Source: Acholoe squamosa (lineage: Eukaryota; Annelida; Polychaeta; Phyllodocida; Polynoidae). Taken from it: 64,000 nt of DNA. Positions 32,961 through 53,841 of this stretch are shown here, piece after piece. The position numbers and the translations under genes are program-made. Position 1 is the first letter of the stretch, and the number at the start of each line of letters is the position of its first letter. Where the stretch lies: contig OX439044.1 of the NCBI GenBank assembly GCA_949317995.1, positions 30,638,733-30,702,732 of the forward strand, in the 5' to 3' direction. The notes under the pieces were generated by a model. The model saw only the letters and a program-made list of their open reading frames with translations, made no database searches and was not told where the DNA came from.

Positions 32961-33154
32961 ACTGGGGAGTACGTGGCCGATTGTCATGAGTTAAGCCCAA
33001 GTTTTACCAAAAAGAAATGATTTTGTAGTTTGCCTTAGTTGTAACCTAATGCATTTGGCTGGGGAGTACGGGGCCGATTGTCATGAGTTAGGCCCAAGTT
33101 TTACCAAAAAGAAATGATTTTGTAGTTTGCCTTAGTTGTAACCTAATGCATTTG
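32961..33154. repeat. 97-bp tandem duplication upstream of the hormone gene
   Basis: Two adjacent copies begin ctggggagtacg(t/g)ggccg and end taatgcatttgg, differing at very few bases. The second copy ends about 315 bp before the predicted transcription start. It could duplicate regulatory sites, but no known factor motif is evident. Confidence 0.92.
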
Positions 33155-33299
33155 GCCGTTTAGAATGTATTACATCTATGTGTACAACATTATTTGTAAC
33201 ACTAGTTAGGGGTCTATGTTTCCCCCAATAAAATGGTTTCACTGAGTTGTGAAATAATAAGAGTAATGCACAAAATTGGCCAAACTTGTGAGAACTGAC

Positions 33300-33475
33300 C
33301 ACGTGTCCATGTGGGTGGTTAGATGAGTGGGTGGGTTAGTGATTGGTATGGATGCGACGATCCAATCAGAACGCGCGGTAGCATTTGCCAGCAAGACTGG
33401 GAGACGCCGCCGTGCGACGCGCCACCTGGGAGGGGAATGTGTATAAAAAGGCTGGGCAGTTGCCTGTGCATTCTT
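33300..33475 (+). promoter_or_regulatory. Core promoter: E-box, CCAAT box, TATA box, initiator
   Basis: A canonical TATA box, tataaaaa, lies at 33442-33449. A CCAAT box (ccaatcag) lies at 33362-33369, about 80 bp upstream of it, and a palindromic E-box cacgtg at 33300-33305. An initiator-like gcAttct places transcription start near 33470, 28 bp from the TATA start, which is the usual distance. The local rise in GC content and the downstream 5'UTR exon and signal-peptide exon support this as the hormone gene's promoter. Confidence 0.75.
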
Positions 33476-33545
33476 TACAGAACTCCCCGCCTCCAAACCG
33501 CGCACATAGACGACAGGAACACCAGTAACAAGTGATTAGTAACAT
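33470..33545 (+). other. CT: 5'UTR exon 1 of the calcitonin-type gene
   Basis: It runs from the predicted start downstream of the TATA box to a strong donor (gtaagt at 33546). No start codon used by the hormone frame lies in it. The 538-bp intron ends with ttgttgcag at 34083. The exact start site is inferred. Confidence 0.6.
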
Positions 33546-34083
33546 GTAAGTGATCAACACGCATCATTTCTTCTACACCAGCGGCCGTGACTATAAAACT
33601 GCACCACACAAAGCTACGAAAATATACTCAGAGACTTAACATATATCATTGGAAGTTGGCACTGGGAACAGGTGCCAAGATCGCTCTAGTCTCTTCATCG
33701 TGTATCCAGACCCATCACTTCAGTCAGCCGCCGCGTGGAACTACATTCACCTGCGACTATAAACGCACATATTCATCCGCGAAGCCAATTCATCCTTCTC
33801 TAAGATAACCAACGCCTGACTTGCAAAGCTCTTTTTCTATCTGAATACAACACATTTTTCTTTGGGCTTGCTTTTTCTTGGAACTATCTTGGGCCTTCCA
33901 AAGCAAAAGAAGCTTACTTACTTAAGCCCCGCGCCGGTACTACTTTCAAGCCAGCTTCCAAAGGGCCATACGGAGGGCCATATCAGTGCGCGGCAGAGAA
34001 GAAGGGGACTTTTGGGTTGTTATTATCGCTTGGGATAGCTGGGGTTTGGAAGAGAGTTCTGACTGGTGGTTGTGTTGTTGCAG

Positions 34084-34227
34084 GCGCGTGTTTGGCAGGA
34101 TGATGAGGTGTGGGGTGAGCTCCTTCCCCGTGCTGCTCGGCCTATGTCTGCTCTATGTGAGCAGCTCTATGGCACAGGGCTACGAGCGGAACTCTCAAGA
34201 GGAAGACAAGTACCAAAACGCCCTCAG
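34084..34227 (+). CDS. CT: Calcitonin-type precursor, signal-peptide exon
   Basis: Acceptor gttgttgcag ends at 34083 and donor gtaagc starts at 34228. Translation probably starts at ATG 34100 (or 34103). The N-terminus MMRCGVSSF is followed by a hydrophobic core, PVLLGLCLLYV, then small residues SSSMAQG, a typical secretory signal with cleavage near SMA/QG. After it comes a short hydrophilic stretch, YERNSQEEDKYQNAL, ending in AG of an Arg codon (phase 2). The exon sits directly downstream of the promoter and is the only secretory leader in the locus, so all hormone forms should share it. Confidence 0.85.
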
Positions 34228-34261
34228 GTAAGCCTCTATCTCATAGCTTATTGTATGAGGT

Positions 34262-34262
<1 letters not shown>

Positions 34263-34323
<61 letters not shown>

Positions 34324-34333
34324 TGTCTCTCTT
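34263..34333. repeat. (CT)n microsatellite in intron
   Basis: About 70 bp of CT repeats with two gtctct interruptions. It lies 35 bp downstream of the signal-exon donor. Confidence 0.96.
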
Positions 34334-35985
34334 CCACGCCCACTTACTCACTCCTACTACATGTACATGTTTGTACATGTATAGGATAAATGTAAAAGAC
34401 TCTCTCCCACATAGGAGACATAGGTATACATGCACTGTTAGACTGGGGCAAGGATTTTACAGTAGATTGCTTCTATTTTAGGAAAACAAATCCAATGCCC
34501 CGATGTGAATTGCCCTGTTCCCAGTACAGTAGTCTTTATAGCCCTTTTACAATCGGGGCTGAGAGTGTACTGTCCCCTTTCCACAGTTTAAGATGATGCA
34601 ATATGCCTCTTCCACAATCATAGGACATACAGCATATCCCTATACATAATATTCTAGAACATACATTTATCATTATTCTTTTTCTGTTTCAATGATTCGG
34701 ATCAATCACGATAAGTTTATGATTCCCTCTGGTACCTCTTGTAGATATTGCTTTAAAGGGGCAAAATAGGCACGATTGTCAAGAACACTTTATCCTGTTT
34801 AATTTTGAAGGCATACATACAGTCACCGTTATGTGTTTCCATGATTACAGAGTCAAGATTTAATGAAAACATTCTTTTTTTTTTCTGGTTGGGGGGTGGG
34901 TTGTGTAGCTTTGAACAGCACTAAGTGGTTAGAATTTCTGCATTATAAGTTTTGGTGAATTGTTCAAAAATGTCGGTCAGTGACATTTTCACCAAACCTT
35001 ATACATGTATCAGATCTCTATCCCAGAACTTTTAGATTTTTTTTTTAACAAAGAAACTTGATAGAGACGTTATATGTCATCATGATCATATCTATGTATA
35101 GATTTCTTCTAAATGGTGTGGACAAAAATGTTCTAGATAGTGAATCCTGCCCATTGTGCCTCATTTATGTGAACAGCCTCATTTGGCATATGGTGCTGGG
35201 ATGACGTCATGGCAGCCATTGTACATGTAATTTGTATGATATCTTGGTCATGGTGCAAAGAAAGCTAGTGTGATCCCACCTGTTAACAATAAAAGCTTTT
35301 CCAGCTATCAGGCAAGTTTGCTTCGGCTTCATATGGAAGAATAAAGCTCTCTGAAATGTTGTTATGCGGGATGCAGGGAGATATATCCTTAACCCATAAG
35401 CAATCTTCATCAGCTATTTTAGATATAAGAAACTTTGAGATAATTATGATGTTGACAACAGGAATGAATTGCTGCTAAACTTTAGCATATCTGAGTTTCT
35501 GTTGTCTAATGCCTGTCAGTGCACTTGAACACATGTATGTGCATACTTTGCATATGAATGCATTTGACGTTATGACTTATATTGGACAGAATCTAGTAAT
35601 GAAACCCCATGTCTACTATAACCAACGCAGAGAAAGAAAGCCCTAATTTGTGTAGCAGATAAATATTCCTGCTTCCATATTACAGTTAGTTAAGAGTGGT
35701 CAAAAGAACTGAGGTTTTCAAACATTTCATCAATCATAGTAGCTTTTTAGTTCTAAACTTACCTGACCTTTTAGTGAAATTCATTTGGATTTATCGCCGT
35801 CAACCAGCTATATACCTTGAAAACACCACCTTATTAAAATACTACTTTCCTTTATGAAAGGTCAGCCATTACTGAAAGTGCTGAATTAACCTTGGTAGTG
35901 GCCTGTGTTCCCGATGTGTTAAAGATGATGAGTATCTTACACATTAAGTGACCGTGTGTTGTGTGGTATGGGTGCGGTGCGTAGG

Positions 35986-36060
35986 TAGTGACCACACCCT
36001 GGAGGTGACCACATACTGAAGGTGGTGACCACATACTGGAGGTGGTGACCACATACTGAT
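35986..36060. repeat. Short minisatellite (ggtgaccacatactg)n
   Basis: Three to four units of about 20-21 bp (ggtggtgaccacatactgga) in tandem. Diverged copies of gtgaccac flank it on both sides. Confidence 0.85.
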
Positions 36061-37754
36061 GGCATTAAACCACATAACTGTGCCGTAGGTGGTCACACCA
36101 TACCCTGTGTTTTGTGACCACAGCTACAAATGTTTGTAACAAACTCACTCTTGAATACAAATGCATGTACAAGCAACTTTCTATAGAATTCATATTTTAA
36201 TCCCACGCTTATTTGGATACCCCCTGTATTGAGACCATTTTTTCTAAAGGAAAATATTTGTTAAACATTAAGGGAACTTCTAGATGCAAAGTAAAACTTC
36301 TGAAGAGTGTCTCACCTCTGGTCCAGGTATTCTGCATTCGAAATGAAAAATTCCCTATGCAAAGTTGGCACATAACTGATGCTTAATTTCAAGTTCTATG
36401 ATACCTTTGAAGCGTAATTTTGATCATGTGTACAAAGAATTGTTTGATCAGTGTGGCCCACAAAAGCTGAAATAAAAATTTACCATAAGACTTCTTAAGT
36501 TCCTGACATGAAATTAAATCATGTAGATATATTCCTTCCCTACCCAACTTCCTTGCCACATATCTGAATCTAGAACCACACAAAACAAAGATGTCCATCC
36601 CTGAACCACCTCAACACAGAATTTCACCTCAGGAGCACAAACATGTCCTTTGCCATGTCCTATTCTATCACCAACCGGTAGATTGGCCCCGAAGGAGGCT
36701 GTTTAAATAGCTAATAAATCCTCTTAGATACCACCTGTGCCTATTTGATACACCCTTTGTGGTAAGGCACTAGCAGAAGAGGTGCACCTCTTTGGTCACT
36801 GAACCCAATTAGTCAGTCCCTTGGGAATCTCACTAGAGACGGACCCGTGCTATTATACTGATTGAAAAAACTGATTTTCCATATCTATTTTCAAAGAGGA
36901 ATACACACATTTAAGCTGGGTCTTTCTATGTGAATTCTATGAGATGTGTAGGCGGTGAGTTCATCTTTGAAATGGGGAATAAGAGATAGACATAGTTCCC
37001 ATGACCATCCAAAGCATGACTCCTAAGTATTAGTTGATCACTGTTAGGGATCTCGCGGTCAGTATCAAGTTTGCGTAGGGGAGGATCGTAATAGAATCCT
37101 TCTGATCACATTACTGATATTGATACGTTTCACACGATCAGATTTAAGTAATTATACTCCAAACGGTACATGTAGGTAGCCCTGAACAAATGGAACCATG
37201 TTCTTCATTTACCTGCCATGTTTCATCTCAATTCACAGAAGTGAAAGAAGACTGACAGAAAGGCCTCTTTTCAATACTATTTAGAGCTAGTGTTGATTCA
37301 TACAAATCTTAGAATACGATGTGGCCCCTCGCCACAAAAATAGCTTTGGTGATCCAATGGTTATAAATTAAGCAAAAATACCTGATGTAGTCGGAAAAGG
37401 CCTTTTATAGGAGTCCAGACCAATAACAATTGGGTCCACCATTTTGATTTCCACTGAGTCTGCTAAACCCCTCTGGCAATGACACGCCAAGATAGGACCT
37501 CTGTCCCTGGGTAGCACCCACTTGAAGGGAGAGGCTTGTCCCCATTTACATTTTAGTATCCTATAAGAACAAGGTACACTTTGGGAAGCTTTCATATTAT
37601 TTGCACTGCTCCACATAAAGGGTATCTTTTTATTTAAATTCATAATGTTTACCAACTCCCATCCCCTCCCCGATAAGCCATGAGTTTTTTGCTCTAGAAT
37701 TAAACCTCTCTGCAGTGTTACACCTTACAATGTTTGTTTTTATTTTCTTCACAG

Positions 37755-37844
37755 ATTGCTGGAACAGTTAGTTGAAACAAGAAAAGGACTCTCAGCACTT
37801 CGTGGCGTTATTAAAGGGATAGACCAAGACCTTCTGGATACGCA
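37755..37844 (+). CDS. CT: Calcitonin-type precursor, propeptide exon A
   Basis: Exactly 90 nt, with acceptor ttcttcacag and donor gtgagt. Phase 2 at both ends: the incoming AG plus A gives Arg, then LLEQLVETRKGLSALRG, then VIKGIDQDLLDT, and the final CA needs one base from the next exon. Each peptide exon supplies A or G, giving Gln. The peptide is charged and probably helical, as expected for a spacer between signal and hormone. It aligns without gaps to exon B (48819-48908), sharing RKGL, a D-x-DL core and the terminal Gln. It has no dibasic site except RK in TRKGL. Confidence 0.82.
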
Positions 37845-40800
37845 GTGAGTGACATCTTTATCACTAGGAAAGTGACACACTGAGTCTGCGCATTCTCAGT
37901 CACTTCCGGTTACTGTTTACACAGTGCGCAGGCGCAAATCGTGAAATATACAGCGCCCCCTTCAATCTAGCATGCGCACTAAGTATTCTTTGTGTGCAGA
38001 GAGTCAGCGAATGTGCATGAACTTGTCTGGACTAATTTTCTACCATAACTAACCGCATATAGGGTGTCTATCATATGATTTGCAGGGAGAAATCATTTGG
38101 TGCATTGTCAGTTATATTTTGACCTCCATTTCGAAACAGCTATACCTCGAGCATAGATTGTTTATAAACTAGGAAAATCACAAAGTTATCCCAATGGGTT
38201 TAAAAAGCTTTCTGTTTACAATGGTTTAAACATAGATTATCCCCCTATTCACGAGGAAATGTAATCACTTTTTAAAATTGTATATGAGATAGGGAGTAAA
38301 TGAAAGTGCAGTTTAAAAAACAGACTCCCTGCAAAGACACCAACAATGGACACCCTACCCACCTGTCATGAATTATTCAGACTGGATGCTGTCCGATATG
38401 TGGGCACGGTATTATCTGAGTTATGTTGGAGCCGGTTGTCGTCTGCTTTAGCCAACCCCCCTTCCCTCCAACCCTGCCACCTGGAGGATGTTTCAACACA
38501 TTCATATTGTATTTTAAGAAGTTATGTCATTCAAATATGCCAGTCTAAAGTTTTGCACATCTACAAAGTTGATTTCCAATGGCCCTAGGGCGAATGATAA
38601 ATGGTATTCAATAATTTCCATATACTGACCCGGATTTGAAACATGGACCCACTCGTCTATACATATATTTGTATTTGATGAAACCCCTCCCGGTAGACAT
38701 TGATCACATCAATCAGACTGTAATACATCTATTGCCCTCGGCCATCATTGGGGCAATGGGAGTGTGGATGGCTATGAGGCACAGTATGGTCCCCCATGAT
38801 CTATACACTGTGCAGAACATCAAAAAGCGTCACACTCACAGTTGTGACAAGAGTCACTATCACATTGTCACTGGATGCACAGCTTTTGACATCCAAATCC
38901 AGGATCTGGGTGAGTCAACGAGCAACAAACCAATCTCCCTTTGATCTAATAGGCCAATGAATAACACCTACTACCTTTCAGTTGAGCCTGTTGATTGTAT
39001 AGTTTGAATGTATGGAATAATATTTAATGTAGAGGGATGGGTTCAGTTGGTAGATAGTGGTTATAGGGGAACGCTGTATACATTTTCTCAGATAGTGGAT
39101 AGAGAGAAGTAATCAATTCTAATGGATGGATAGGACATGTGGCCTTCACTTTGTCAGAAAACACCAGCTTTTTGGGAAATTTAGCCATGGGTTATTTGAT
39201 GCCCCCCTCTACCTTGTTCTAACAAGTAATTTCTGCTTTCCACACTTCTTTAGTCTCTGTTAATTGATTATGTTTACCACACACAGAGCTCCTGGATATT
39301 TAGCTTGCTAAATTTATGGAACCATTGTGTGCTTTTGGCAGAGATGAGGTCTTGTAACTAATCCAGCTACAAAAGCTATATAAGCTACACTCTAGGTCTG
39401 AAAAGGGGGGAGGGCGTTTCTTTCTATTGTCTCTATGTGTAAAGCCCGCGTATAAGGCAAACCCTGGGTTTTGGATGCCACAAGAAATGGACTATAACCT
39501 GTGTCTCTTATTAACTTGTATGCTTGCCAACAACAATATAGGCATTTTAACGCTTTATAATTGCAGTAAACATTTTACTATCAGAATAAAATCAGATAGA
39601 TAAGGGTAGCAATAAAACATGCTACAAAATAGAATGTGCAGAGACACTTACAAGATCAATTATCCTATCATCAGAGTGGGTGGCCTAGCGTGCATCAGTA
39701 GTGAGCTGTACACAGGGGAGCCCTGAGTCGCTCGCTTAGTGCACAACTTGCAGAACCTATCAACAGTAAAAACCGTAGTCCACTTGGCGTCTGTCGCGCG
39801 ATTGAGCCATACATTTCCTATATATCAATTTCTGCGACAGAGGCCTAGTGGACTATCGACGTAAAACTCATAGTCCACTTGGCCTTTGTCGTGCGGTTGG
39901 GCTATACATTTCCGATATAATAGATTGCTGCGACAAAGGCCTAGTGGTCTATCGATATTACATCGAGAGTCCACTTGGCCTCTATCGCAGCAATTTACAT
40001 AGGAAATGTATGGCTCATTCGCCGGCGAAAAGCCAAGTGGACTGTGGGTCTTAAGTAACAAAGAATACTGATGGTCGTTCCACGTCATTCCATGAAGTCT
40101 AAGCTTAAAATTGTCAAACAGTTATCAAAATTTGAGCTTTATTAGGTATTTCATCCAAAATAAAGTTAGCCTGTTTGGAAATTGGCCGGTACTGACTACT
40201 AAAGCATCGAGACTTGAATGTACACTAGGCCTAAATGAATCACGTTGGCCATCGTTCCGAAAAGGGAACCATTGAACCAAAATATTGGCACATGTTGCTT
40301 TGAAACCGCCATCTTCTGGCTGACCAATTATCAAAAACTGTATTAATCAAACAGGAGTGCAATAGCAAAAACTTTAGTTTGTATCATTAGTCATGTATGG
40401 CAGAGGAAACTGAGGATCTTGTATCGCTATGTAGATAGATGATTACCATGGTAACCAGTTGGGATAAGAAAAAGTGGAATATTACGTAGGATGTCCCTAC
40501 TCTCTCAACCGTTTAATATTGGACGTTAGAAATTGACATCCCTCGTCAACTCATACTGTACGTGATTTGCAAGTGTACGTTTTCAGCCATTAGACCTTCA
40601 GAGATCAAAGGAGCTCATTTTCAAATGCCTTTTGCTCCCCTACTGCCATATGTCTATCCATTGCTACAGCATTGTCATTGATAAGCCCTGCGGTCCCGAA
40701 TGAGCACTGGTCTCAAGTTAGGGTTGAGCACCTGAGTAGAGTAATATTTAAATTAATTCGCCCTAAGGCACGTTATACAGGTCAGTGCATGGTAATCCTG

Positions 40801-41994
40801 AGTGGGTCCTCTCTTTGACACTAGCACAGAGCTCACATTCCGCCCCCTCATCCCCACTGTCCCTCAATACGTCACGTCCGCTACCACCCAGAAGGCCACT
40901 GTGCATTAGAGTGGTTCTTACTCCCAGAGAGAAAAGGCGCGAAGTAAGACAAAAGTCGTGTGCTCCACGAAGTGACTAGCATTTGTAATTTATGTCGGAT
41001 TCTTACAGCCTCACATGTGTTCACAATGTAATGGATTATGGACGAATTAACAAATAGTACTTCAACGATATTGTGTATACATAGATAATAATGATGATTA
41101 TATAGGTTTCACCTGAGAATCTACCCCCTTACTATAGTGAGAGAGAAGACAACAATTAGAACCACCAGCTGGAATAATATTTCCCTATGGGATCTGCCAA
41201 TATGACAAATACGCGTACGCTAATGCAGACGACCAGCTCGCTCCGACATAACAGTGTTGAGCTATAGCCCATGTTATAGTACTGGTTCTAACACTGTTCA
41301 GTGAATCTATCATTCTCTAAACTAAGTATGGTTTTGTTCTCTTTTTTTTTCTCTCAACAATTACATAAGCATCGTGTTTTGATATGATTCTAATTGATCT
41401 TTTTCAAGGTATATATTTTGCATTTAAGATTTATTCCTGTCTTGATTTAAGCTCGATTTCACATTAACGTTAGTTTGCACATTTAGAATTAAGATGTTAA
41501 GTGATGGTATTGTAGACCTCTAGATTACTAACAAGCTAACACAATAGAGCTAGAGATTTTGCATACGTTTCTTCTTGTAGATGCCTGCATTCGTGTTGAT
41601 TATTTCATTAACCAAAACATTTATTCCAGTGTTTGAGTGAGCTACGACACAGGAGGCTTAATAATTGTTGGAACTCCACAGGCCAGAAATACGTTTCTTC
41701 AGAGTTATTATCCAATTTTTATTACGGGACCAGACAAAGAGATTGTCAAAAAAATCCTTAACGTGGCACAAAGACGCTTGAACTCAGGCGCTGAAAATAA
41801 AAAGAACCAAATTCAAACATGGCGAAATGGATGAAAAGGGGCTAAAAAGGATGACGAGAAATGGTGTGCACGCATAATAGGTGTAAAACTACCAATGGAC
41901 ACCACTCGTAAGCCTCCTGTGTGATGTCACTGAGCTCGCTACCTTTTCAATTTTTTGCTGACTCATGATGCACCGGATGTGGTTTGCGCTGCAG
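37845..41994 (+). other. Intron between propeptide A and peptide a exons
   Basis: It contains three tandem hairpins at 39775-40044 and a T-tract near 41340. The short open frames at 38346-38588 and 38636-38944 lack splice or motif support. It ends with tttgcgctgcag. Confidence 0.65.
39775..40044. mobile_element. Three adjacent hairpin repeats
   Basis: The units are 39775-39856, 39871-39956 and 39965-40044. Each starts with agtccacttggc and ends with its reverse complement form (gcc(a/t)agtgg-ct). The interiors of units 1 and 2 share gccatacattt-like sequence in the same orientation. Unit 3 has that interior inverted (gaaatgtatggctca). Each unit can fold on itself. No gene. Confidence 0.8.
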
Positions 41995-42174
41995 AAAGCG
42001 GACCTGCGCAGTAGGAGGTGGTATGAGCCACCATTGCGCAGCGGCCTTGCTAGACAGTCAGCTCGTAGCAGCTGATTGGTTAAGGAACGGATATAGTCCC
42101 GGCAAGCGATCAGCCAATGGGGACGCGCAGTTCGCGGCGGCAGAACGCAGCGGCGCTCACAGCGAAGTAGACAG
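41995..42174 (+). CDS. CT: Calcitonin-type peptide a exon
   Basis: 180 nt, phase 2 at both ends, with acceptor tttgcgctgcag and donor gtatgc. After exon A it reads Gln-Lys-Arg, a convertase site, then TCAVGGGMSHHC, AAALLDSQLVAADW and LRNGYSPG-KR. The mature form should be 33 residues with a Cys2-Cys12 disulfide ring (nine residues between) and a C-terminal prolinamide from SPG-KR. A 22-residue C-terminal spacer (SANGDAQF ... HSEVDR) completes the exon. The exon is GC-rich against an AT-rich intron. Ring size is larger than the five residues between the cysteines of vertebrate calcitonin. Confidence 0.87.
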
Positions 42175-42499
42175 GTATGCAGCAGCAAATGGTTACCATA
42201 GCAACGACAGCTGCCAGCGTTGCCATGGTTACATGTGGCTTATACCATGGTGACAGCAGCTTTTGGTTACTATGACCAGAGTCGGTAACCCTGTGGTTGT
42301 GTTACACGTGGTGAACATCACTGCCAAGTTGTTGCACATACTTGGTAGTATCATCTCCTGTATTTTGACAAAGTCCTCGAGTTCGTGTTCCCTCCTATCT
42401 CCACCCCCTTGCCTTCTATCTACTCATCCACCATCTAGGCCTATACCTAATCCACATTCCACTAAGAACCTCCAGAAGTATCATTCGCCCCTATGAAAA

Positions 42500-43210
42500 G
42501 TAGTTTGGGAAAGTTGTTTAATTTGGACCAGCTCATAAATTGAACCACCCTTGTTTCTCCCAGTGGCAGTGATAGAAACTAGGTTCCAATGCTGCCATTT
42601 CTTAGGCAATATCACAAAATTTCCAAATAACTTCAAAAACATAATTTTTGGCTTATTTCATGCCCATTTTCCACAAAAATGTTTTTTGGACCTCTTGATC
42701 TTATTTGCATAATTGCTTACTTAAGCCCTTCTGGTTGCTAGGCAACATTTCTTTGTTCAAAAGCCTTTCAGAATTTTAGATATCCTATTAGACTAAAATG
42801 AAATTTGATAAAAACATTGTTATGTTTTAGAAGGCAAACTATCAATGAGAAAGATGTAAAGTTGTTTTAATTGGACCAGCTTGAGTTTCCTAAATTGGAC
42901 CATAGTTATTACATAAGGTCCAATTCAGTTTCCTAAATTGGACCACTAGGTGGGCCTATGCACAGTTTTCTAAATTGTACCGAAGTTTAACTTATTTCTT
43001 AATCCAGTACAGAGTGATTTAACTTTATATTGATGGAAATAACAAGAGGATATGTAATATCATATACATCAAAAGTTCCCTGATTTCATATATGTTTCAA
43101 TAATAAGGAAAATAATATTATGAGAAAATAGATAATAACAATGCACAATGGTCCAATTTAGGATACCAATTGGCCCAATTTAGGCACCTGGTTCCCTAAA
43201 TTGGACCATT
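42500..43210. repeat. Repeat region with aaattggacca motifs in both orientations
   Basis: cctaaattggacca or close variants occur at about 42889, 42933, 42970 and 43194. Reverse forms (ggtccaattta, ggcccaattta) occur at about 43149-43180, and an outlying copy lies at 42520. It looks like a decayed inverted-repeat element. Non-coding. Confidence 0.6.
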
Positions 43211-44917
43211 TGGCTTTCAATTTTAATTGCACACCCTGACTAGAGATGTTGGAATTCCTAGATTTTTATGCCATCACCAGAAAGCTATAAGGTATACCCT
43301 CACAAAGTGTATAAATTTCTACATTAAAATTCATAAAAACAATCACTAAACAGGAAAATGTTCTTAGGGGGTCCAAAAGAGGCAACTTTCCACTAAACTC
43401 TACTAGTAGTAGCGTTGCCATAGTGATGGCCTGACCACTGTGATAATGGTTATTATAACAGTTCTGAGATAACAGCATGAAAGCCTTGGCTGGATTTAGG
43501 ATTATTAATTACCTTATCGAAATGAGGAACTATCACCTAATACTGTAGATTATTAGGATAAGGCATGGGCGAGAATAGAGTGATTATTGGATCAATTTAA
43601 GTACACAATAGTTTGCCGTCAAACAATTTTTCTCTCAAAGTCCCTTACTATGGTTAATACAGGTTCAAAGGCCAAAGAAGTCTAACATTTTCAGCAGTTC
43701 ATTAAAAGTTAATCATCAGGTTGTTTCAAGTTTATTTTGAAAATAATCCTGACGTTGCCATGTGAGATGTTTGTCACTACTTTATTGAGCACTACTGTGG
43801 GATTATAAGTCATCTTTTATCACTTTGTAATCCAGAGTATACTTCTATATTGTCAATTGTAGAATTGCCAACCTCCATTGTGCACAGGAAAAAAAAACAA
43901 TAGTTTAGACTAAGTGCTAACTTTTGGCCAATTCCTGGAAGTAGTGATATATCTTGCTAACCTTGGAAGGTCTTCATTTCGGATTGGTTCATGCATATTT
44001 TCCTTTGCGTATCATGTCACTATTGCATTCAATCGATTCTAGCTCTTTCTCCTCATTTCGGATGTTATTAGATAATCTATTTTGATTTCCTTAGCAACCT
44101 TTGTTTGTGATCGGTTCATAGTTTATTTTCCCTGTCATGCAATAGATAACCACTTTTTAATCACTTTTTTAAAAACCGCTCCCCCGAATTGAAGATCTAT
44201 TGGTTCATGTAGGCAGAATCTTAAGCGATTGGCCAAAGGTTATACCTTAGCAAAACCATGGGTGCCCATAATTACGATAGAGTAGATCTTTTTCAGAGTA
44301 TACAAATACTCCAAGTCAGAACTAAAAACACCAAATGACAGCCTTGCTTTTAACCCTTTTTTGTCTGGGTGCAGTATACCATTTCATTTCATCGACATGG
44401 TGCATAAATGCAACCTTGCCTAGTAACTAGCCAGAAGTGCATTCGTGTACATCATTGATAGAGTCGATACCCTCCCAATGGTAGATTCCCTCTTATCCAG
44501 AAATGTCCTTCACCCCCAACCCATTCTCTCCGGTTGTCCCTCCAGTTGGAAGATTGTTATCTCTGTTATCTGTAAAGAACAAACACTTGTATAACTCACC
44601 CACCCACTGTCTCTCCCAATGTTTCCTTGTATAGCTCTACCAAAAAGGGTAAATTAATGTTTCTCTCGACTTTCTGTGACTGTACATTGCTTTCACTTTT
44701 CAGCAAGACAGAGCAGACCCGCGCTGTCTCACCCTTTGCAAATTTTCTGTCCTCTCATGACATTTCCATGTCACTCAGCCACTGTCGACACTGAATATAC
44801 TGATATGTCTTCCCTGTGCTCGCTCGCTGCGAAAGTTCTACCCTCTATTGTAATCCTTAACCCTTTAAGGGCCGCATGATGCATAAATGATCTATTCCCC
44901 TGATCGCCATGGTGTCC

Positions 44918-44984
44918 TGAGCACTGTGGGGATAGTGATGTCCGTAAAGCGCTTTACGGACATCGCTATCCCCGCAGTGCTGAG
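44918..44984. repeat. Long near-perfect palindrome without a loop
   Basis: The arms meet at 44950/44951 in gtccgtaaagc/gctttacggac. They extend through gatagtgatg against catcgctatc and out to tgagcactg against cagtgctga. Two or three mismatches in about 33 bp per arm. Weaker inverted similarity (gcatgatgcat, gccatgg) continues outside, suggesting a small inverted-repeat element of about 200 bp. Confidence 0.85.
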
Positions 44985-46478
44985 GCATCAACACAAGACT
45001 GGCCAGCACTGCATCGGTGCATCATAACGGCAAGGCGCCATGGATCTGGAGGCATCATGTGTCTCTTAAATGATCAGTACTGTTTCCTTATACCTTATGT
45101 CTTCTCAGCGTCAAGCAGGAAGAACCCTGATATTTCTGACGGAAGTAGTTTACAAAGCATGACACCCTATATATGCGCGAGCTAAATGCGTTTCAACGCT
45201 TTTTTGTATCTTGTTTGCCTGTTATCAGCCAAAGAACTTGAACTTCTTCCAATTCGAGTACTTTGGTTAACTGTCTAAATTCTTTTACTGGGAATAATGG
45301 CAGGTAAACTCGAAGCAAAAACGTTGCATACTTAAGTAGAACAAGTGAAATGGCAATGAAGACAACACATGTGCAGCCAATGGCTCCTCCACTGAATCGA
45401 AAGGGAACTTTGATGGTGTATGATTTTGGAGAATAAAAGGAAGAAGAATGAATTTGAATTTGTAGAGTACGACTTCTCACCAGAAGTGACTCCAAGATAT
45501 CAATGACAGGAATTCAGAAGTATATAAAGTAAGCCTGTGATAGTACATTTATTTTGCAAGTGGAGTATGCAAGCATAGTATATGTGAAGTCTTATTGTCA
45601 GATACTGTCTATTTTATTTCAAACGACATATTATGTGCAAATTATAGATTATGAAAAAATGTTGTACAGATAATGGACAGAACGGACTGGTAACAGTTTG
45701 ATTCTTAAGCATCTTTTGTTTTGTGAACTGACGTAGCGCCTCCCTGACGTAGAAGAGTACACCTAGAGACTACCATTAGGACGTAACTGGACCAACCCTC
45801 ACAGACTGCGTTTTGATGAATTAATGTTCAAAGCAATCATAAATGTTATCAAAATTCACTTGAAATCTAATTTGGAGCTAGCGTTCATCATAGGTCTCAA
45901 CTTTGTCCAGAATACTCAAGAGACAGTTACTATAAAACTTTGTGATATTTTTGCCATTATTAGAAAAGTTATCCTCTGACAGAATTTACTCTGAAATGAA
46001 CACTATCTCATCGATACACAGTGACTTGACTGATGAGAGCTACATGTGAACCTGGGACCCAGGCCTAAAACTAACTACACTATATAGACCATATAGAAAC
46101 CGCTCCTTCCTTGTCCTATAGATTCAGCGTTTGTGTTCTTGTCATCAGCACCATAATGACTTATATTTGTTTTGAAAGCACTAACTTTGTATATATTTAT
46201 CATCACCACGTATTTCAATAAGTTCAACTTCCTTGTGTTTTATTGATCCTTTTAACCAACCGCCAATATGATTATGATTATTTCCTGTGAGTATGATTAT
46301 GATATTGTCTCATTATGTTCGTTTTTATCAGTAGACCAGGCCGTGTGTGATCAGCCTGCACATGGGGCCTGGCCACTGGCACCCCCAACTCCACCCCACC
46401 TTATTAATTAATTATCGTTACTTAATTAATGTTGTTGGTTGGCACACCTGTGGTTTACGTTGGCCCTTTATGTTTGAG

Positions 46479-46631
46479 GAAGCGCTGGTCCTCCTGTGCA
46501 ATAGGGCTGGGTATGAGCGGTTATCAGTGCCATCTGGCCTCACTCCACGACAACTCTGATCGCAAAGAGTGGGTAACCAACCACCGCCTCAGTCCCGGCA
46601 AGCGGGGATACACGTCTGAGGATGTGGCCAG
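46479..46631 (+). CDS. CT: Calcitonin-type peptide b exon
   Basis: 153 nt, phase 2 at both ends, with acceptor ctttatgtttgag and donor gtaagc. It reads Gln-Lys-Arg, then WSSCAIGLGMSGYQC, HLASLHDNSDRKEW and VTNHRLSPG-KR. The predicted mature peptide is 37 residues with cysteines at 4 and 15 (ten residues between) and a C-terminal prolinamide. A nine-residue tail, GYTSEDVAR, follows. The spacing from the second Cys to Trp (13 residues between) equals that of peptide a, supporting paralogy. An internal Arg-Lys might be an extra processing site but is followed by Glu. If the intron is retained, the donor itself supplies a TAA stop. Confidence 0.83.
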
Positions 46632-48818
46632 GTAAGCATGACGACTAGAAACTGACCAATCAGGGATCAGCGAGTGGTCAAACCGAGGTCGCTTGGAGGT
46701 CGCGCGAGATTTCGCGAGACCTCGTCGGACCTCGCGAGACCCGCTGACACGATTTTTGATTATGACATTTAAAACAAAGACCAGACACTACTGGACTAAT
46801 TTGAACGATTTTGTGCATTATATGTTTTATCTAATTTTATCAGTGATCATTGTAAGGACAAACTGAGCATTGAGTTATCTTATTTTCAAGACGAATATTT
46901 ATTATTTATTATAACTGATTGCTACTTACCTGACTTAGAACATTGACCTGCATGTAGGTCGACCTACCAATAGCATTAGGACCAAAGGACAAAACTGAAA
47001 TAAAAAATAATAATATTAGAGAGAATTCACTTCCCACAGACCTGACTTTTTTTTTCTTTCTGACCCGTCTAAGACTTGCCTTTCTGAATCATTGAATATA
47101 GGCATCAAACTGAATAGAAGCCTATAGTTCACACTTTACCATCAATGTGCGCTTCGCTTTGATCGCTTACATTGAAATTGATGATAACCGCATTTATACA
47201 TTTATGGTCATCATGAGAAAATTGACAGATGTTGATGCACACTCCTAATGTCCCTTTGCGCTTGTCTCTATTTAATATTCTACTTCTTCTATCTATTTCT
47301 CATGGATTCGCATGCTATGATGTCTGTTCTTTTTTATTAACACTAGTATTAGACTGGTATGGCGAAAGACTTTTTGAATAAACTAACCAGTGAATGAAAT
47401 GCATGTTTGAAGTGCTTCCATGACGGCTCTAGATGAATAGTTGACTTTTTTGTTGTTGATACTCTTGAAGCGACAATATCGCATTTCATAACTCTGCCAT
47501 AGATCATTACCCCTTCGCCAGTGGCGCATCGTCCATGCGATTTGTTTAAAACCAGATCTATTTGTTTTAATGAAACCGTCACCCCTATTCTATACAGTCC
47601 ATCCCTATCATGTAATCATCTTCCATGATCCTGTGTGCTACTATTGAAGGATAATACAATGAAAAACATAAGCCCTTTGTTACTATGAAGGCCATTGCAT
47701 GCTACATGCAATATCATAGCCTCTCTCATAGAGAATGTTACCCCTTGTCCCTGTGATCCCTAAAGGTTTTATCCCAGCCTAGATGAGAAAAAAAGAAGAG
47801 GTAGAAAAAGAATTACCGGCGCAGTTAACATAAGCCCCCTTTGTTACGAATGCTTTTAGTCGGATGCATAGGAAATGGGGATTAGAAAGAGCATTGATAT
47901 ATAAAATAATAGTTCCTTTAAGAAGATATTCAGAAGATACTGGATTATGTGTATGCCACTGTAAAGCAGGATATGTAACCTTCATGCTTTGGTAAAGGGC
48001 TAAGATAATGTCTGTTGAAATTTAGAAAGGGGAAATAATTAAAAGTCACAATCTTGTCTTGATAAATCTAAGCGTTGGGCTGTTTTATACGGGAAAAGAA
48101 GCTCATCAGTTGAACGATCTATTATTTCAAAAAGCTACAAATAAAAAGCCTAAAGGGATTGTGCTAGTTGCCTGATGGCACTATGCGACTATCAATTAAA
48201 CCCATTGAACCTGTTAATAATGGTATGGTAATATCCTCATGGCATAGGGGCCTATAATGGCGTCCTACATTGAAAGGATATAAAAAGGAGGAAATTGTCA
48301 GTATGTCAAATAGAATATAGTCATTCTAGAACGATACGTCATTTCTTATGGAGAACTAAACTTTGGCGACCCAACCAGAGTCAATGTATAATTATTGTTT
48401 ATGGTTTACATTTGCAGTTCAAAATGTGTGACTTGACACATGTATTCATGGTAATGAATTGCCCAGAACAAATAGGACTCCCTAGTATCTAGCATGTCAT
48501 ACTATTATACTTAAAATTTAAATCGCGAAACAATCTGCACAATAATGGACATACTTAATGAAATCCCTCGTGAACACTTATTCTTTAACATAGACATACT
48601 CTTTGGAAACGTCCCCATGGATCCGACTCCTAAAGTAGATGAAGGGAATAGTGTACACTATAACGATCCACCTCTAAGAATCCACATACGCATGAATAAG
48701 CACTGTCAGTGCCAACACTGCAGTGCACATACAGGAGGTGTAGTTTCTGCTCTGTGGGTGCTTACCGAGGTGTAGTAGTCTCTAGCTGTGTGGATATATG
48801 TGATGAGCTTTGTTACAG
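46632..48818 (+). other. Intron between peptide b and propeptide B exons
   Basis: No repeats of note. An aataaa at 46999-47004 could end a transcript that stops in exon b. The open frames at 48295-48492 and 48545-48775 have no motif. The intron ends with gagctttgttacag. Confidence 0.6.
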
Positions 48819-48908
48819 AAAAGTAAAGGACCTCGCTCGTAAGAGGAAAGGTTTGGAGGTAATGAACAAGCTGGTGGACCAGATGGATGGAGATCTCGTC
48901 ACCGAGCA
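48819..48908 (+). CDS. CT: Calcitonin-type precursor, propeptide exon B
   Basis: 90 nt, the same size and phase (2/2) as exon A, with acceptor tgttacag and donor gtgagt. The translation after the shared Arg is KVKDLARKRKGLEVMNK, then LVDQMDGDLVTE, ending CA to be completed as Gln. About 9 of 30 positions match exon A, including RKGL and the DL near the end. Unlike A it carries a strong multibasic site, RKRK. It precedes peptide c just as A precedes peptide a, so it is probably a duplicated propeptide module. Confidence 0.82.
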
Positions 48909-49587
48909 GTGAGTATATGTTCCACCTTTGACAAATTGGATCCTATGTGATCCGATCGATGAATTAGAAACCCTGATTCCTTTATTCCTTGCAGGTGTGA
49001 GTCTCGGAAAACACTGATATATAATTTATTATTAAAACTATTCGTGCAACCGTTATGCCAGTCTGAGCTTCTGATTCTCAAGCTGTAATTTATTAGATCT
49101 AAACCTAATAGATTACAGCCTAATTAATTGGGACCTAATTATCTCTACAACACAGAAGTGGATATCAACAAGGTCCTGAAATGGGAACGGGAAATCTCCA
49201 CCTTAAAGGAATTGAACCAAATCATTCCAAATTATCATGTAGACTTGTTTTGGCCAAAATGAAATTGTATTCAGGTTCCATGCCCTGAGAATAAAGGTTA
49301 CAGGGTATTGTCAGTTTTCCTTCTTTTTTTTCTTTTTTTGATGACTTAAAAGTATGCAAGAATTAACTTGTAACTCATATAGTTCAGTAATGGTAGGACA
49401 TAATAACAAAAGAATGAACTTGCGGCGTTTGTCTCCATATTGTATTCTTCCCTTCCAGAAAATATACATGGAAATGCACTCAAAGGGTTCCCTCTCAAGA
49501 AGAAAATCTCCACCCCTCCCTCCCCTCACACTCCCTGCAATAATATATCGGTATTATCTCGTTAAATGTGCACCATTATGTCCTCAG
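48909..49587 (+). other. Intron between propeptide B and peptide c exons
   Basis: 679 bp, AT-rich, with a T/C-rich stretch near 49318-49340. It ends with accattatgtcctcag. No other feature. Confidence 0.75.
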
Positions 49588-49753
49588 GAAACGTACTTGC
49601 GCTGTTAACTTGGGCGGCCACTGCGCCACGGAAAGCGCGGCCTCATTGGCTGATCAGTGGCACTACCTCAACTCGCCCCTGAGCCCCGGCCGTAAGAGGC
49701 GGGACACCAGGATGTACCAGCGACTCATCAAGGGGAAGGTGAGCAGCTCCTGA
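49588..49753 (+). CDS. CT: Calcitonin-type peptide c exon (terminal as called)
   Basis: Acceptor tatgtcctcag ends at 49587. It reads Gln-Lys-Arg, then TCAVNLGGHCATESAASLA, DQWHYLN and SPLSPG-RKRR. The mature peptide should be 31 residues with a Cys2-Cys10 ring (seven residues between) and a C-terminal prolinamide, followed by a strong tetrabasic site. The C-terminal tail is DTRMYQRLIKGKVSSS, with TGA at 49751-49753. A good donor (aag/gtgagc) lies at 49739, so splicing there to a further exon in phase 0 is possible. The compact ring and SPLSPG end look to me most like molluscan calcitonins, an impression I cannot check here. Confidence 0.88.
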
Positions 49754-50208
49754 ATAGTTAAAATTACCCCCTTTTTTAGCAAGAAACCTCCATAATTATT
49801 CTTGTTTTAATGGCCTCAGAGTGCTTTAATGCTCTCCAGGGTTTTTTTTCTTGGTTTTTTTTTTCTTGGTTTTTTTCTTGGTTTTTTTGGGGTTTTTTTG
49901 GGGGGAGGGGAGTTAGTTTTGGATGAAGCTCTGGTATGTACGTAATCACCAGTGCTACATTAATAGTATGTAGTCCAATTGATACACTCCCAAATGGTTG
50001 GTATTTATATGTTCCAATGCTGTGCTGTTGGGAAGACTCATCAGGGAACATCAACCTGGTCTAAGCATCGTATGGTTTGTACAAAGTTAATTTTGCCAAC
50101 CTGATGTTAAGACAGGTAATAGGATAAGAGAGCCGACCGTAGTATCGCCCCCAGCTAAGGTGACCTTACCTATACTACTTGCATATTCAGTCATGGAGTG
50201 TTAGGCTA

Positions 50209-50214
50209 AATAAA
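50209..50214 (+). terminator. Candidate polyadenylation signal
   Basis: aataaa about 455 bp after the stop of peptide c, followed by an A-run. It is the first canonical hexamer on the + strand after that stop that I noticed. Not proven. Confidence 0.4.
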
Positions 50215-52155
50215 AAAAAATCAAAGAATTTGATACTTCCTTTGATATGTGCCCTAACATTTCTTATATAAATGTAAAAAAAAAAACTAAAAATAAATCC
50301 GACCTACCGACCCTCCCTTTTCAAGTCATGTAACTGGAAACACACCTTTATTTCTTTGCCCTAAGTAGTATACACTTATAGTAATTGTTACAGCGTGCAT
50401 CATTTTAGTATATTTCAAGGTAGTATAGGGAGTAGTGTTACTATAATACCAGGCAGTATTAAATAGCCATACATAGGGCACATAATTAAGTATTTGTAGT
50501 ATAAGAAGAGATCCTACAGCAGCAGACATAATATGATTCAGTGTAAGTAGTACAGGGAGAGACACTGCAGTACCAGGCACAGTCTGATACAGTCATACAC
50601 AAGGTTCTTCATTTAGTTTAAGTATATTTGTAGTACATTGTATAGGGAGAGTTTCTACTGCAATAGACGTATCATCTAGTGTAATTAATACAGGGAAAGC
50701 TACTACAGAACCAGCCATAGTCTGATATAGCCATACACAAGGTACCACTTTATTTAGTTTAAAGCTGGCACAAGACGTGAAGAATATAGATTTTTTGTTT
50801 TGGGTATATCTACAACCAGCCCACCTGCCTGTATGCACTGTTGACAGCTCAACCAATTCTGAGAGTTTTAACCATGCTAATCTCAAAGAAATAGATGTCT
50901 AGAAATAAAATGCTTCCAGAATTTTATCTCTGTTGACAAGCACTTAATTACATCAGCACAGTGGTGCCACCTGTAGTTAGGAAATCAGACTGTGGTGTTC
51001 TATGGCAATGACACCATCCCAAGGGAAGCCTGCAGGGTTGCAGACTGCTCAGTGCTGCCATGTAGGGACTTTGATAAGAACTAATTAACCAAAGCAGTTA
51101 ACCATCCCACCAATGCAGCAAACACAGTTGAACATTGAGTTTCCAACTGTATGTATTGAAACCCACTCCTTACTAGATTAAATACTGTGAAATTAATTGG
51201 AAAGTAATGCATAATCATCTGAAATAGAAATCAGAATAACTTAAATCATGTTTTGTAGCAGCTTTAAGTGATATAAGGAGAGTTTCTACAGCAGCAGACA
51301 TTACCATTCAGTGTAAGTAGTATAGGCAAAGCTACTACAGAACCAGGCATAGTCTGGTACAGTCATACACAAGACCGGTACTTAATTTAGTACTTATAAG
51401 TAGTACAGGAAGAGCTACTACAGTACCAGGTATACTTTGATACAGTCATACACAAGGTACTTTATTCAGTGTACGTAGTATAAGGAAAGATACTATAGTA
51501 CCAGGCATATCATTTAGTGTAGGCAGTATAGGGACAGCTACTACAGAACCAGGCATAATCTGATACAGTCATACAACATGTAGTTCATCTAGTGTAAGTA
51601 GTACAGGGACTACAACAGTTTCAGGCATAGTTTGATACAGTCATACATAAAGTACTTCCTTTATGGTAGGTAGTATAGGGAGAGAGGCTATAGTACCATG
51701 CATAACATTTAGTGTACAGAGTAGAGGGAGAGCTACTACAGTACCAGGCATAGTTTGATACAGTCATAGGTAGGGCACTTCAATTAGTGTAAATAGTACA
51801 GGGAGAGCTACTACAGTACCAGGCATAGTTTGATAGTCGTACACAAGGTACTTAATTTAGCATAAGTAGTATAGGGAGAGATACTATAGTACCAGGCATA
51901 TCATTTAGTGTGAGTAGTAAAGGTAGAGTTACTACAGTACCAGGAATAGTTTGATACACAAGGTAGTTCACTTGGTGTAAGTAGGAGTTACTTCAGCAGC
52001 AGATATATCATTTACTGTAAGTAGTATAGGGAGAGCTACTACAGTACTAGGCATAGTTTGATACAGTCTTACACAAAGTACTTTATTTAGAGTAAGTAGT
52101 ATAGGGAGAGGTACTATAGTACCAGGCATAGTTTGATACAGTCATATACAAAGTA

Positions 52156-52958
52156 CAGTAAAATTCCTTTACAACGAATCCTGTTACAACGAAATTTCGT
52201 TTACAACAAACTAATCTCATTGTCCCAAATCAGCCCCATACATTTCTATAGTAAAATAATCCCCTTATAACGAATTTTACATCATCTGAAATCGTTTATA
52301 ACAAATTTTTCATAGCTTATACAAACATTATCTGGTATCTGAGGGGTGTTAGGATGTGTAATAGGACCTCTACAGCCGCCTCTATTGAACTCAGGGCGGC
52401 AGAAGGGATAAGGGAGGTGGGGGGAGGGGGTGTTAGGATGTGTGATGGGGCTTCTACAGCCGTCTCTATTGAACTCAGGGCGGCAGAAGGGATAAGGGAG
52501 GTGGGGGGAAGGGGTGTTAGGATGTGTGATGGGGCTTCTACAGCCGTCTCTATTGAACTCAGGGGGGCAGAAGGGATAAGGGAGGTGGGGGGAAGGGGTG
52601 TTAGGATGTGTGATGGGGCTTCTACAGCCATCTCTGTTGAACTCAGGGCGGCAGAAGGGATAAGGGAGGTGGGGGGAGGGGGTGTTAGAATGTGTGATGG
52701 GGCTTCTACAGCCGTCTCTATTGAACTCAGGGCAGCAGAAGGGATAAGGGAGGTGGGGGGAGGGGGTGTTAGAATGTGTGATGGGGCTTCTACAGCCGTC
52801 TCTTTTGAACTCAGGGCGGCAGAAGGGATAAGGGAGGTGGGGGGTGTGTGTAGTTGGCCCCTAATGGTCTCATATTGTATGATTTGGTTAGAACGAAATT
52901 CGTTTATAACGAATTTTTTTCCTTGTCCCAAGCACTTTGTTATAACGGAATTTTACTG
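52156..52958. mobile_element. 803-bp TA-flanked element with pogo/mariner-like ends
   Basis: The ends are inverted repeats: cagtaaaattcctttacaac on the left and cagtaaaattccgttataac read from the right. TA is duplicated on each side (52154-52155, 52959-52960). Removing the element restores the minisatellite phrase aaagtacttcattt. The motif aacgaaattcgtt recurs near both ends. TA target duplication and CAGT-type ends are typical of Tc1/mariner-superfamily MITEs. There is no transposase. Its centre is an 84-bp tandem repeat. Confidence 0.85.
52340..52850. repeat. 84-bp tandem repeat, six copies, open in both strands
   Basis: The unit contains ggcttctacagccgtctcta, then ttgaactcagggcggcagaa and gggataagggaggtgggggg. 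Because 84 is divisible by three and no stop falls in the chosen frames, both strands carry long open frames (220 codons + and 204 codons -). The two frames lie over the same repeat, which argues for a repeat artefact instead of a gene. Confidence 0.9.
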
Positions 52959-53556
52959 TACTTCATTTAGCGTAAGTAGTATAAGGAGAGCTACTACAGT
53001 ACCAGGTATAGTTTGATACAGTCATATACAAAGTACTTCATTTAGAGTAAGTAGTATAGGGCGAGATACTATAGCACCAGGCATAGTTTGATACAGTCAT
53101 ATACAAAGTACTTCATTGAGTAAGTAGTATAGGGAGAGATACTATAGTACCAGGCATAGTTTGATACGGTCATATACAAAGTACTTCATTTAGAGTAAGT
53201 AGTATAGGGCGAGATACTATAGTACCAGGCATAGTTTGATACAGTCATACACAAAGTACTTCATTTAGCGTAAGTAGTATATGGAGAGCTACTACAGTAC
53301 CAGGCATAGTTTGATACAGTCATAAACAAAGTACTTCATTTAGAGTAAGTAGTATAGGGAGAGATACTATAGTACCAGGCATAGTTTGATACAGTCATAT
53401 ACAAAGAACTTCATTTAGAGTAAGTAGTATAGGGAGAGATACTATAGTACCAGGCATAGTTTGATACAGTCATACAAAGTACTTCATTTAGAGTAAGTAG
53501 TATAGGGAGAGATACTATAGTACCAGGCATAGATTGATACAGTCATATACGAGGTA

Positions 53557-53841
53557 CCATCATCTCTCGCGTATAAGGCGCACCTCGCATATAAGACGCA
53601 ACTAGAGTTTAAGAATATGCTCAAAACATTAGAAAAATTAATAACTTTTGTTCTACTAAATGGATTTTCAAAAGGCTACGTGTAGCTACAGCTACATGGA
53701 ACCTCCTGGAGCCTCCTATGTAATATTATTACTTAGGGGAAGTGTAATATATCAAAATGAAGGTCTTGATCTCCCCCTTGTGGATCCAGTGAGAACTAAA
53801 ACCCCGCGTATAAGACGCGCCTTATACGCGGGAGATTACGG
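53557..53841. mobile_element. 285-bp TA-flanked MITE
   Basis: The left end, ccatcatctctcgcgtataa ggcg, matches the right end read in reverse, ccgtaatctcccgcgtataa ggcg. TA lies outside both ends (53555-53556, 53842-53843). Excising it restores gaggtacttcatt of the host minisatellite. No coding capacity. Confidence 0.85.

Follow-up and report, generated by a model that had tools for sequence, protein, structure and literature searches.

A predicted calcitonin-type prohormone gene with three hormone exons, two of them candidate splice cassettes

The AjCTP gene of the sea cucumber Apostichopus japonicus has four coding exons, of which the third encodes CT1 and the fourth encodes CT2, and yields one transcript carrying both CT1 and CT2 and a shorter one that skips the CT1 exon (PMC12638048, PMC6586643); this and the other published systems are described here as in the portions of each source that were available. 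Skipping of the CT1 exon is likewise reported in brittle stars (PMC5627052). The arthropod calcitonin A/B gene codes for two kinds of disulphide-ringed prolinamide hormones, and in the termite the A and B hormones lie in separate exons chosen by splicing (PMC4237046, PMC4888303). A single precursor gene of Capitella teleta specifies three different calcitonin-like peptides (PMC7200681). In vertebrate CALCA, related hormones lie in separate 3' exons behind a common set of 5' exons, and tissue-dependent splicing chooses between them. A stretch of 64,000 nucleotides from Acholoe squamosa (the window; 30.64-30.70 Mb of contig C10 in a 1.48-Gb genome of 63 contigs) contains a locus that reads as one gene for three calcitonin-type hormones, termed a, b and c. 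It is reasonably likely, judging from the DNA, that this is a single prohormone gene whose precursors always end in hormone c, while tissues differ in whether they include or skip a and b (and perhaps one propeptide exon).

Gene structure and predicted hormones

Sequence reading of the locus gave GT-AG ends and phase 2 in all five coding introns, as the initial annotation had claimed for the phases (five of five). Its further claim that internal exons can be skipped without loss of frame also held. The four internal exons can be combined in 16 ways, and the computed join is open for each of them (16/16), with a single terminal stop at 49751-49753 in every case, and every junction in these joined forms rebuilds a dibasic site at the hormone start, as had been predicted. 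The KR that opens each hormone exon is kept across all 16 open forms, and the full six-exon coding form has 268 residues. Hormone exons a and b (180 and 153 nt) have phase 2 on both sides and no stop ahead of their donors. The donors at 33545, 34227 and 46631 match 8/9 consensus bases, a level met by 9 of the 3710 GT sites on the + strand; the hormone a donor matches 7/9 and both propeptide donors match 6/9. The hydrophobic N-terminal start at 34100-34227 is signal-like by composition alone, no dedicated predictor having been applied. The annotated signal exon and two 90-nt propeptide exons were recovered, with the signal exon start corrected to 34084. Exons, phases and joined frames agree with the annotated single gene for three different calcitonin-type hormones, and the locus is read as a single predicted calcitonin-type prohormone gene (Table 1).

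The predicted mature peptides are TCAVGGGMSHHCAAALLDSQLVAADWLRNGYSP-NH2 (a), WSSCAIGLGMSGYQCHLASLHDNSDRKEWVTNHRLSP-NH2 (b) and TCAVNLGGHCATESAASLADQWHYLNSPLSP-NH2 (c). The hormone exons at 41995-42174, 46479-46631 and from 49588 on carry the KR, the two N-terminal cysteines and the SPG-basic end attributed to them. The two cysteines are present in 3/3 peptides, with 9 (a), 10 (b) and 7 (c) residues between them, and in 3/3 the C terminus is SPG followed by KR or RKR, which predicts a prolinamide. Each hormone also has the tryptophan that had been described as central, but it sits in the C-terminal half.

The window was searched in six frames with a hormone pattern of KR, up to 4 residues, C, 5-9 residues, C, 8-40 residues, SPG and two basic residues. 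Two matches (a and c) were obtained compared to 0/100 dinucleotide shuffles. Hormone b misses this pattern with its 10 residues between the cysteines; after b had been seen the spacing was widened to 5-12 residues, which gave three matches (a, b and c) compared to 0/100 dinucleotide shuffles. The hormone pattern is well beyond chance. Pfam searches with two joined precursors and eight long open reading frames (ORFs) of the window, then with 10 further ORFs, gave no family above the cut-off, and sequence searches of the Protein Data Bank (PDB), using either the three-hormone profile or hormone c, returned weak, unrelated matches alone. Neither Rfam families (at the gathering threshold) nor tRNAs were detected in the window, and a literature search with the letters of hormone c returned 0 papers. 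The abalone egg-lysin family PF01303 gave no hit, an uninformative result given that no control responded.

Table 1. Features of the predicted calcitonin-type gene, in window positions
Feature	Positions	Strand	Description
TATAAA	33442..33447	+	~30 bases 5' of the likely transcription start near 33470; putative promoter element, presumed start
Probable non-coding first exon	33470..33545	+	donor CAT/gtaagt, 8/9 consensus; presumed start placed from the TATA-like box
Signal exon	34084..34227	+	start codons 34100/34103, signal-like MMRCGVSSFPVLLGLCLLYVSSSMAQ, donor CAG/gtaagc
Propeptide exon 1	37755..37844	+	90 nt, LLEQLVETRKGLSALRGVIKGIDQDLLDT, donor GCA/gtgagt
Hormone a exon	41995..42174	+	180 nt, KR-TCAVGGGMSHHCAAALLDSQLVAADWLRNGYSP-GKR, then spacer
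Hormone b exon	46479..46631	+	153 nt, KR-WSSCAIGLGMSGYQCHLASLHDNSDRKEWVTNHRLSP-GKR, GAG acceptor, previous AG 124 bases away
Propeptide exon 2	48819..48908	+	90 nt, KVKDLARKRKGLEVMNKLVDQMDGDLVTE, donor GCA/gtgagt, same as propeptide exon 1
Hormone c, coding part of last exon	49588..49753	+	KR-TCAVNLGGHCATESAASLADQWHYLNSPLSP-GRKRR; the gene's only stop codon at 49751-49753
AATAAA	50209..50214	+	likely poly(A) signal for the last exon; presumed use

Upstream of the gene, two nearly identical 97-base tandem copies occupy 32962-33156, ~300 bases 5' of its likely start.

Predicted expression and alternative explanations

The only stop codon lies in exon c, and therefore every mRNA ending in exon c carries hormone c. 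Exon skipping therefore only adds or omits a and b, and the proposal of the initial annotation that the gene picks its hormone goes too far, since c is present in every such mRNA. The proposed scheme starts with a transcript of the signal exon and a propeptide exon, then hormone exons a and b, propeptide exon 2 and the terminal exon with c. Splicing of this pre-mRNA would give precursors that always end in hormone c, with a tissue-dependent choice to include or skip exons a and b, possibly along with one propeptide exon, and the hormone output of a cell would be c by itself or c accompanied by a, b or both. A prohormone convertase would cleave the KR sites, a carboxypeptidase would trim the basic residues and the glycine would be converted to a C-terminal amide. 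The products would be disulphide-ringed prolinamide peptides acting on calcitonin-type class B receptors.

The previous AG lies 60, 124 and 85 bases from the acceptors of a, b and c, distances reached by 96, 4 and 29 of the 3949 AGs in the window, respectively, in a comparison made after the fact on six exons. The corresponding AG-free stretches are 41935-41992 (a), 46355-46476 (b) and 49503-49585 (c). For the acceptors of the signal exon and propeptide exons 1 and 2, the previous AG is 27, 39 and 11 bases away. Long AG-free stretches accompany distant branch points, which are linked to regulated exons, and GAG is a rare, unfavoured type of acceptor. The AG-free stretches and the GAG acceptor of b hint at regulated splicing, and alternative splicing of the predicted cassettes a and b is plausible. 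A more specific version is doubtful. It holds that the exons form a combinatorial cassette array in which c would always be made and a and b would be independently included under tissue control via distant-branch-point acceptors, and up to four hormone mixtures would be sent to different calcitonin-type receptors. The Rbfox motif TGCATG is not enriched, with one copy (46949) within 500 bases of a hormone exon and a window average of 0.28 per kb.

Several results weigh against a calcitonin-type gene with optional hormones a and b. The pyrimidine content of the acceptors does not separate the hormone exons from propeptide exon 2, and symmetric phase-2 exons are also left by exon duplication and are by themselves no proof of skipping. 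A window search with hormone c returned a and b at noise level (E 2.2 and 2.4), propeptide 1 finds propeptide 2 at E 0.15 only, and 641 of 1000 shuffles were as good as the DNA likeness between the two propeptide exons. The family profile PF00214 (Calc_CGRP_IAPP) gave no match at E<=1 to the joined precursors (n = 2) and no match at E<=10 in the whole genome, with no control genome responding. The PF00214 non-match says little, because no control responded and no known mollusc calcitonin was put to the profile. The last point on this side comes from the two-peptide precursors of mussel, oyster and limpet and the three-peptide precursor of Capitella, for which splicing goes unmentioned in the available part of PMC7200681.

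These precursors favor the main rival, a constitutive polyprohormone in which all six coding exons enter nearly every mRNA and the 268-residue precursor is cut into a, b and c. It is a serious and possible explanation. The six-exon frame is fully open, as it requires, and 3/5 coding donors agree with the consensus at 7 or 8 of 9 bases; the GAG acceptor of b and the unusually long AG-free stretches at the hormone exons stand against it, as do reports that sea cucumbers, brittle stars, termites and decapods use calcitonin cassettes alternatively.

The exon order propeptide-a-b-propeptide-c could instead reflect a pair of genes in tandem, each starting from a signal exon of its own, the upstream one coding for a and b and the downstream one for propeptide 2 and c. 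Three tandem calcitonin-family genes are present in amphioxus, according to a review, but in the window no stop precedes the donors of a and b, and neither exon shows a clear 3' end. A search for a second signal exon with a phase-2 donor of at least 6/9 gave one candidate between b and propeptide 2 (starts 47229/47235, donor 47356), which was rejected for the stop codon at its junction. Candidates of this kind readily arise by chance, the window having 16 such start sites over both strands, of which 2 belong to the real signal exon, and the two-gene arrangement is improbable.

A true selector of the vertebrate calcitonin/CGRP type is very improbable. In this arrangement, read-through and polyadenylation after b (or a) would produce separate mRNAs for a/b and for c, and the two propeptide exons would supply one per arm. 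A stop at 46633 directly past the donor of b and an AATAAA at 46999 fit such an end, but any phase-2 intron with a GTAA donor automatically places a stop right behind it, and AATAAA/ATTAAA is common, with 15 between 42174 and 51200, and the copy at 46999 could well be chance. Exons a and b have no stop of their own before their donors, and the sole stop is in exon c. A hormone exon serves as an alternative last exon in CALCA; no hormone exon here was found to play that role by having a stop and a poly(A) site of its own.

It is scarcely credible that hormone b (or a) is a decaying pseudo-exon out of use, as its GAG acceptor and the weaker match of b to the scallop a-type peptide given below might suggest, against an open frame, an 8/9 donor, the starting KR, both cysteines, the SPGKR end and a multiple-of-three length, all of which b retains.

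Kinship of the hormones, scallop peptides and neighboring sequence

Hormones a and b are related, as 0/5000 shuffles reach their score with or without the SPG tail. The likeness of hormone c to a and b is weaker (3 and 7/5000 shuffles, and 40 and 338/5000 without the tail). Hormone b probably arose as a copy of hormone a. The two propeptide exons are alike in length (90 nt), phase and donor (GCA/gtgagt), and each propeptide is the other's best further match in the window (E 0.15 and 0.5). Their protein score of 42 is reached by 0/5000 shuffles, but the best shuffle scored 41. Propeptide exon 2 is probably a copy of propeptide exon 1, and since the two share 10/31 residues and their DNA is no closer than shuffles, any duplication would be old. 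Self-comparison of 33301-51300 detected five repeat pairs, none between exons. Profiles of the three hormones and of the two propeptides, which the known exons match by construction, found no extra copy in the window above the inclusion threshold.

Four calcitonin-type (calcitonin/DH31) peptides of the scallop Patinopecten (Mizuhopecten) yessoensis are printed in the available part of PMC5996578. Peptides 1 (TCNIGVNSHFCALADLDSKIRSREWLNSIYSPamide) and 2 (TCAVEVGGTCRTEWASSIADQYYYLLGPHSPamide) are printed together ahead of a semicolon, which suggests that they come from one precursor. The 12 window-scallop peptide pairs were compared using 5000 shuffles with the cysteines and SP held fixed. Hormone a is identical to peptide 1 at 16/33 positions, and hormone c to peptide 2 at 19/31 and to peptide 3 at 14/31 (0/5000 shuffles for each pair). 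Hormone b matched peptide 1 with a score of 42 (1/5000 shuffles) and hormone c matched peptide 1 at 9/5000; the other 7 of the 12 pairs were non-significant (314 to 2357/5000), and peptide 4 matches none of the three hormones. A bivalve thus shares the a- and c-type peptides, and b represents one more a-type cassette. The peptides printed for the scallop include no b-type one, and this animal has a second peptide pair, whereas no second gene was found in this genome in the searches made.

Scallop peptide 3 had a single match in the whole 1.48-Gb genome, which was hormone c (E 1.3e-5). Whole-genome searches with c, and with b, propeptide 2 and c combined, returned this locus only; scores in these searches were given to the best candidates only. 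The pattern C..N[LF]G.HC occurs at 30 places in the whole genome compared to 14 for the same pattern read backwards, and translating and reading all 30 gave one calcitonin, the window's own. A diverged second calcitonin gene may exist elsewhere in the genome. The same pattern search brought up three near-identical stretches (L023, L024 and L028; CIQNLGIHCYQKG... / ...YRKG...) that lie on contigs C13 and C15 and may belong to a repeated element.

Downstream of the gene, 52343-52844 holds six copies of an 84-base G-rich minisatellite within an open frame of 253 residues; the opposite strand has long frames as well. A 75-base satellite at 52958-53557 adjoins it, and there are more arrays from 51265. 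On the - strand, 59142-61205 is an open frame of 688 residues, low in complexity and made up of basic and acidic sequence, with no Pfam match at E<=1, perhaps a large exon of a disordered or coiled-coil protein.

Comparison with known calcitonin-type systems

The gene is a multi-hormone calcitonin-type gene of a known family; its additional elements are one a-type cassette and propeptide exon 2. No report of alternative splicing of a mollusc calcitonin gene was present among the matches listed, which covered titles and the starts of abstracts and left subscription literature mostly outside, and the available parts of the oyster and abalone neuropeptide literature gave no calcitonin gene structure. 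The junctions of a calcitonin gene are set to the base here. If a and b are optional, hormone-cassette splicing would occur in a lophotrochozoan besides arthropods, echinoderms and vertebrates, and this would bear on whether cassette splicing is ancestral to Bilateria or has repeatedly arisen.

The ring of Ciona calcitonin spans Cys1-Cys7, according to a review, and the predicted ring is wider in hormones a, b and c. The locus is like Capitella teleta in drawing three different calcitonin-like peptides from one gene, and like the arthropod A/B gene in drawing several kinds of disulphide-ringed prolinamide hormones from one gene. Arthropod A and B reside on different transcripts, whereas c is not removable by skipping here. 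Shared 5' exons and related hormones in separate downstream exons are features in common with CALCA; unlike in CALCA, a and b are internal, with no stop before their donors and no clear poly(A) site. The vertebrate calcitonin/CGRP logic invoked in the initial annotation gives way to an additive plan closer to that of the sea-cucumber gene, with c not removable by skipping. The symmetric internal hormone exons a and b stand upstream of a terminal hormone exon, the echinoderm-type arrangement, and as in AjCTP a hormone exon, here predicted to be skippable, precedes the terminal one behind a shared signal peptide. AjCTP has two hormones, whereas this locus has three and a second propeptide exon. 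If the predicted splicing is true, it would add a third cassette beyond the two-hormone echinoderm design, in a plan that is additive and not either/or.

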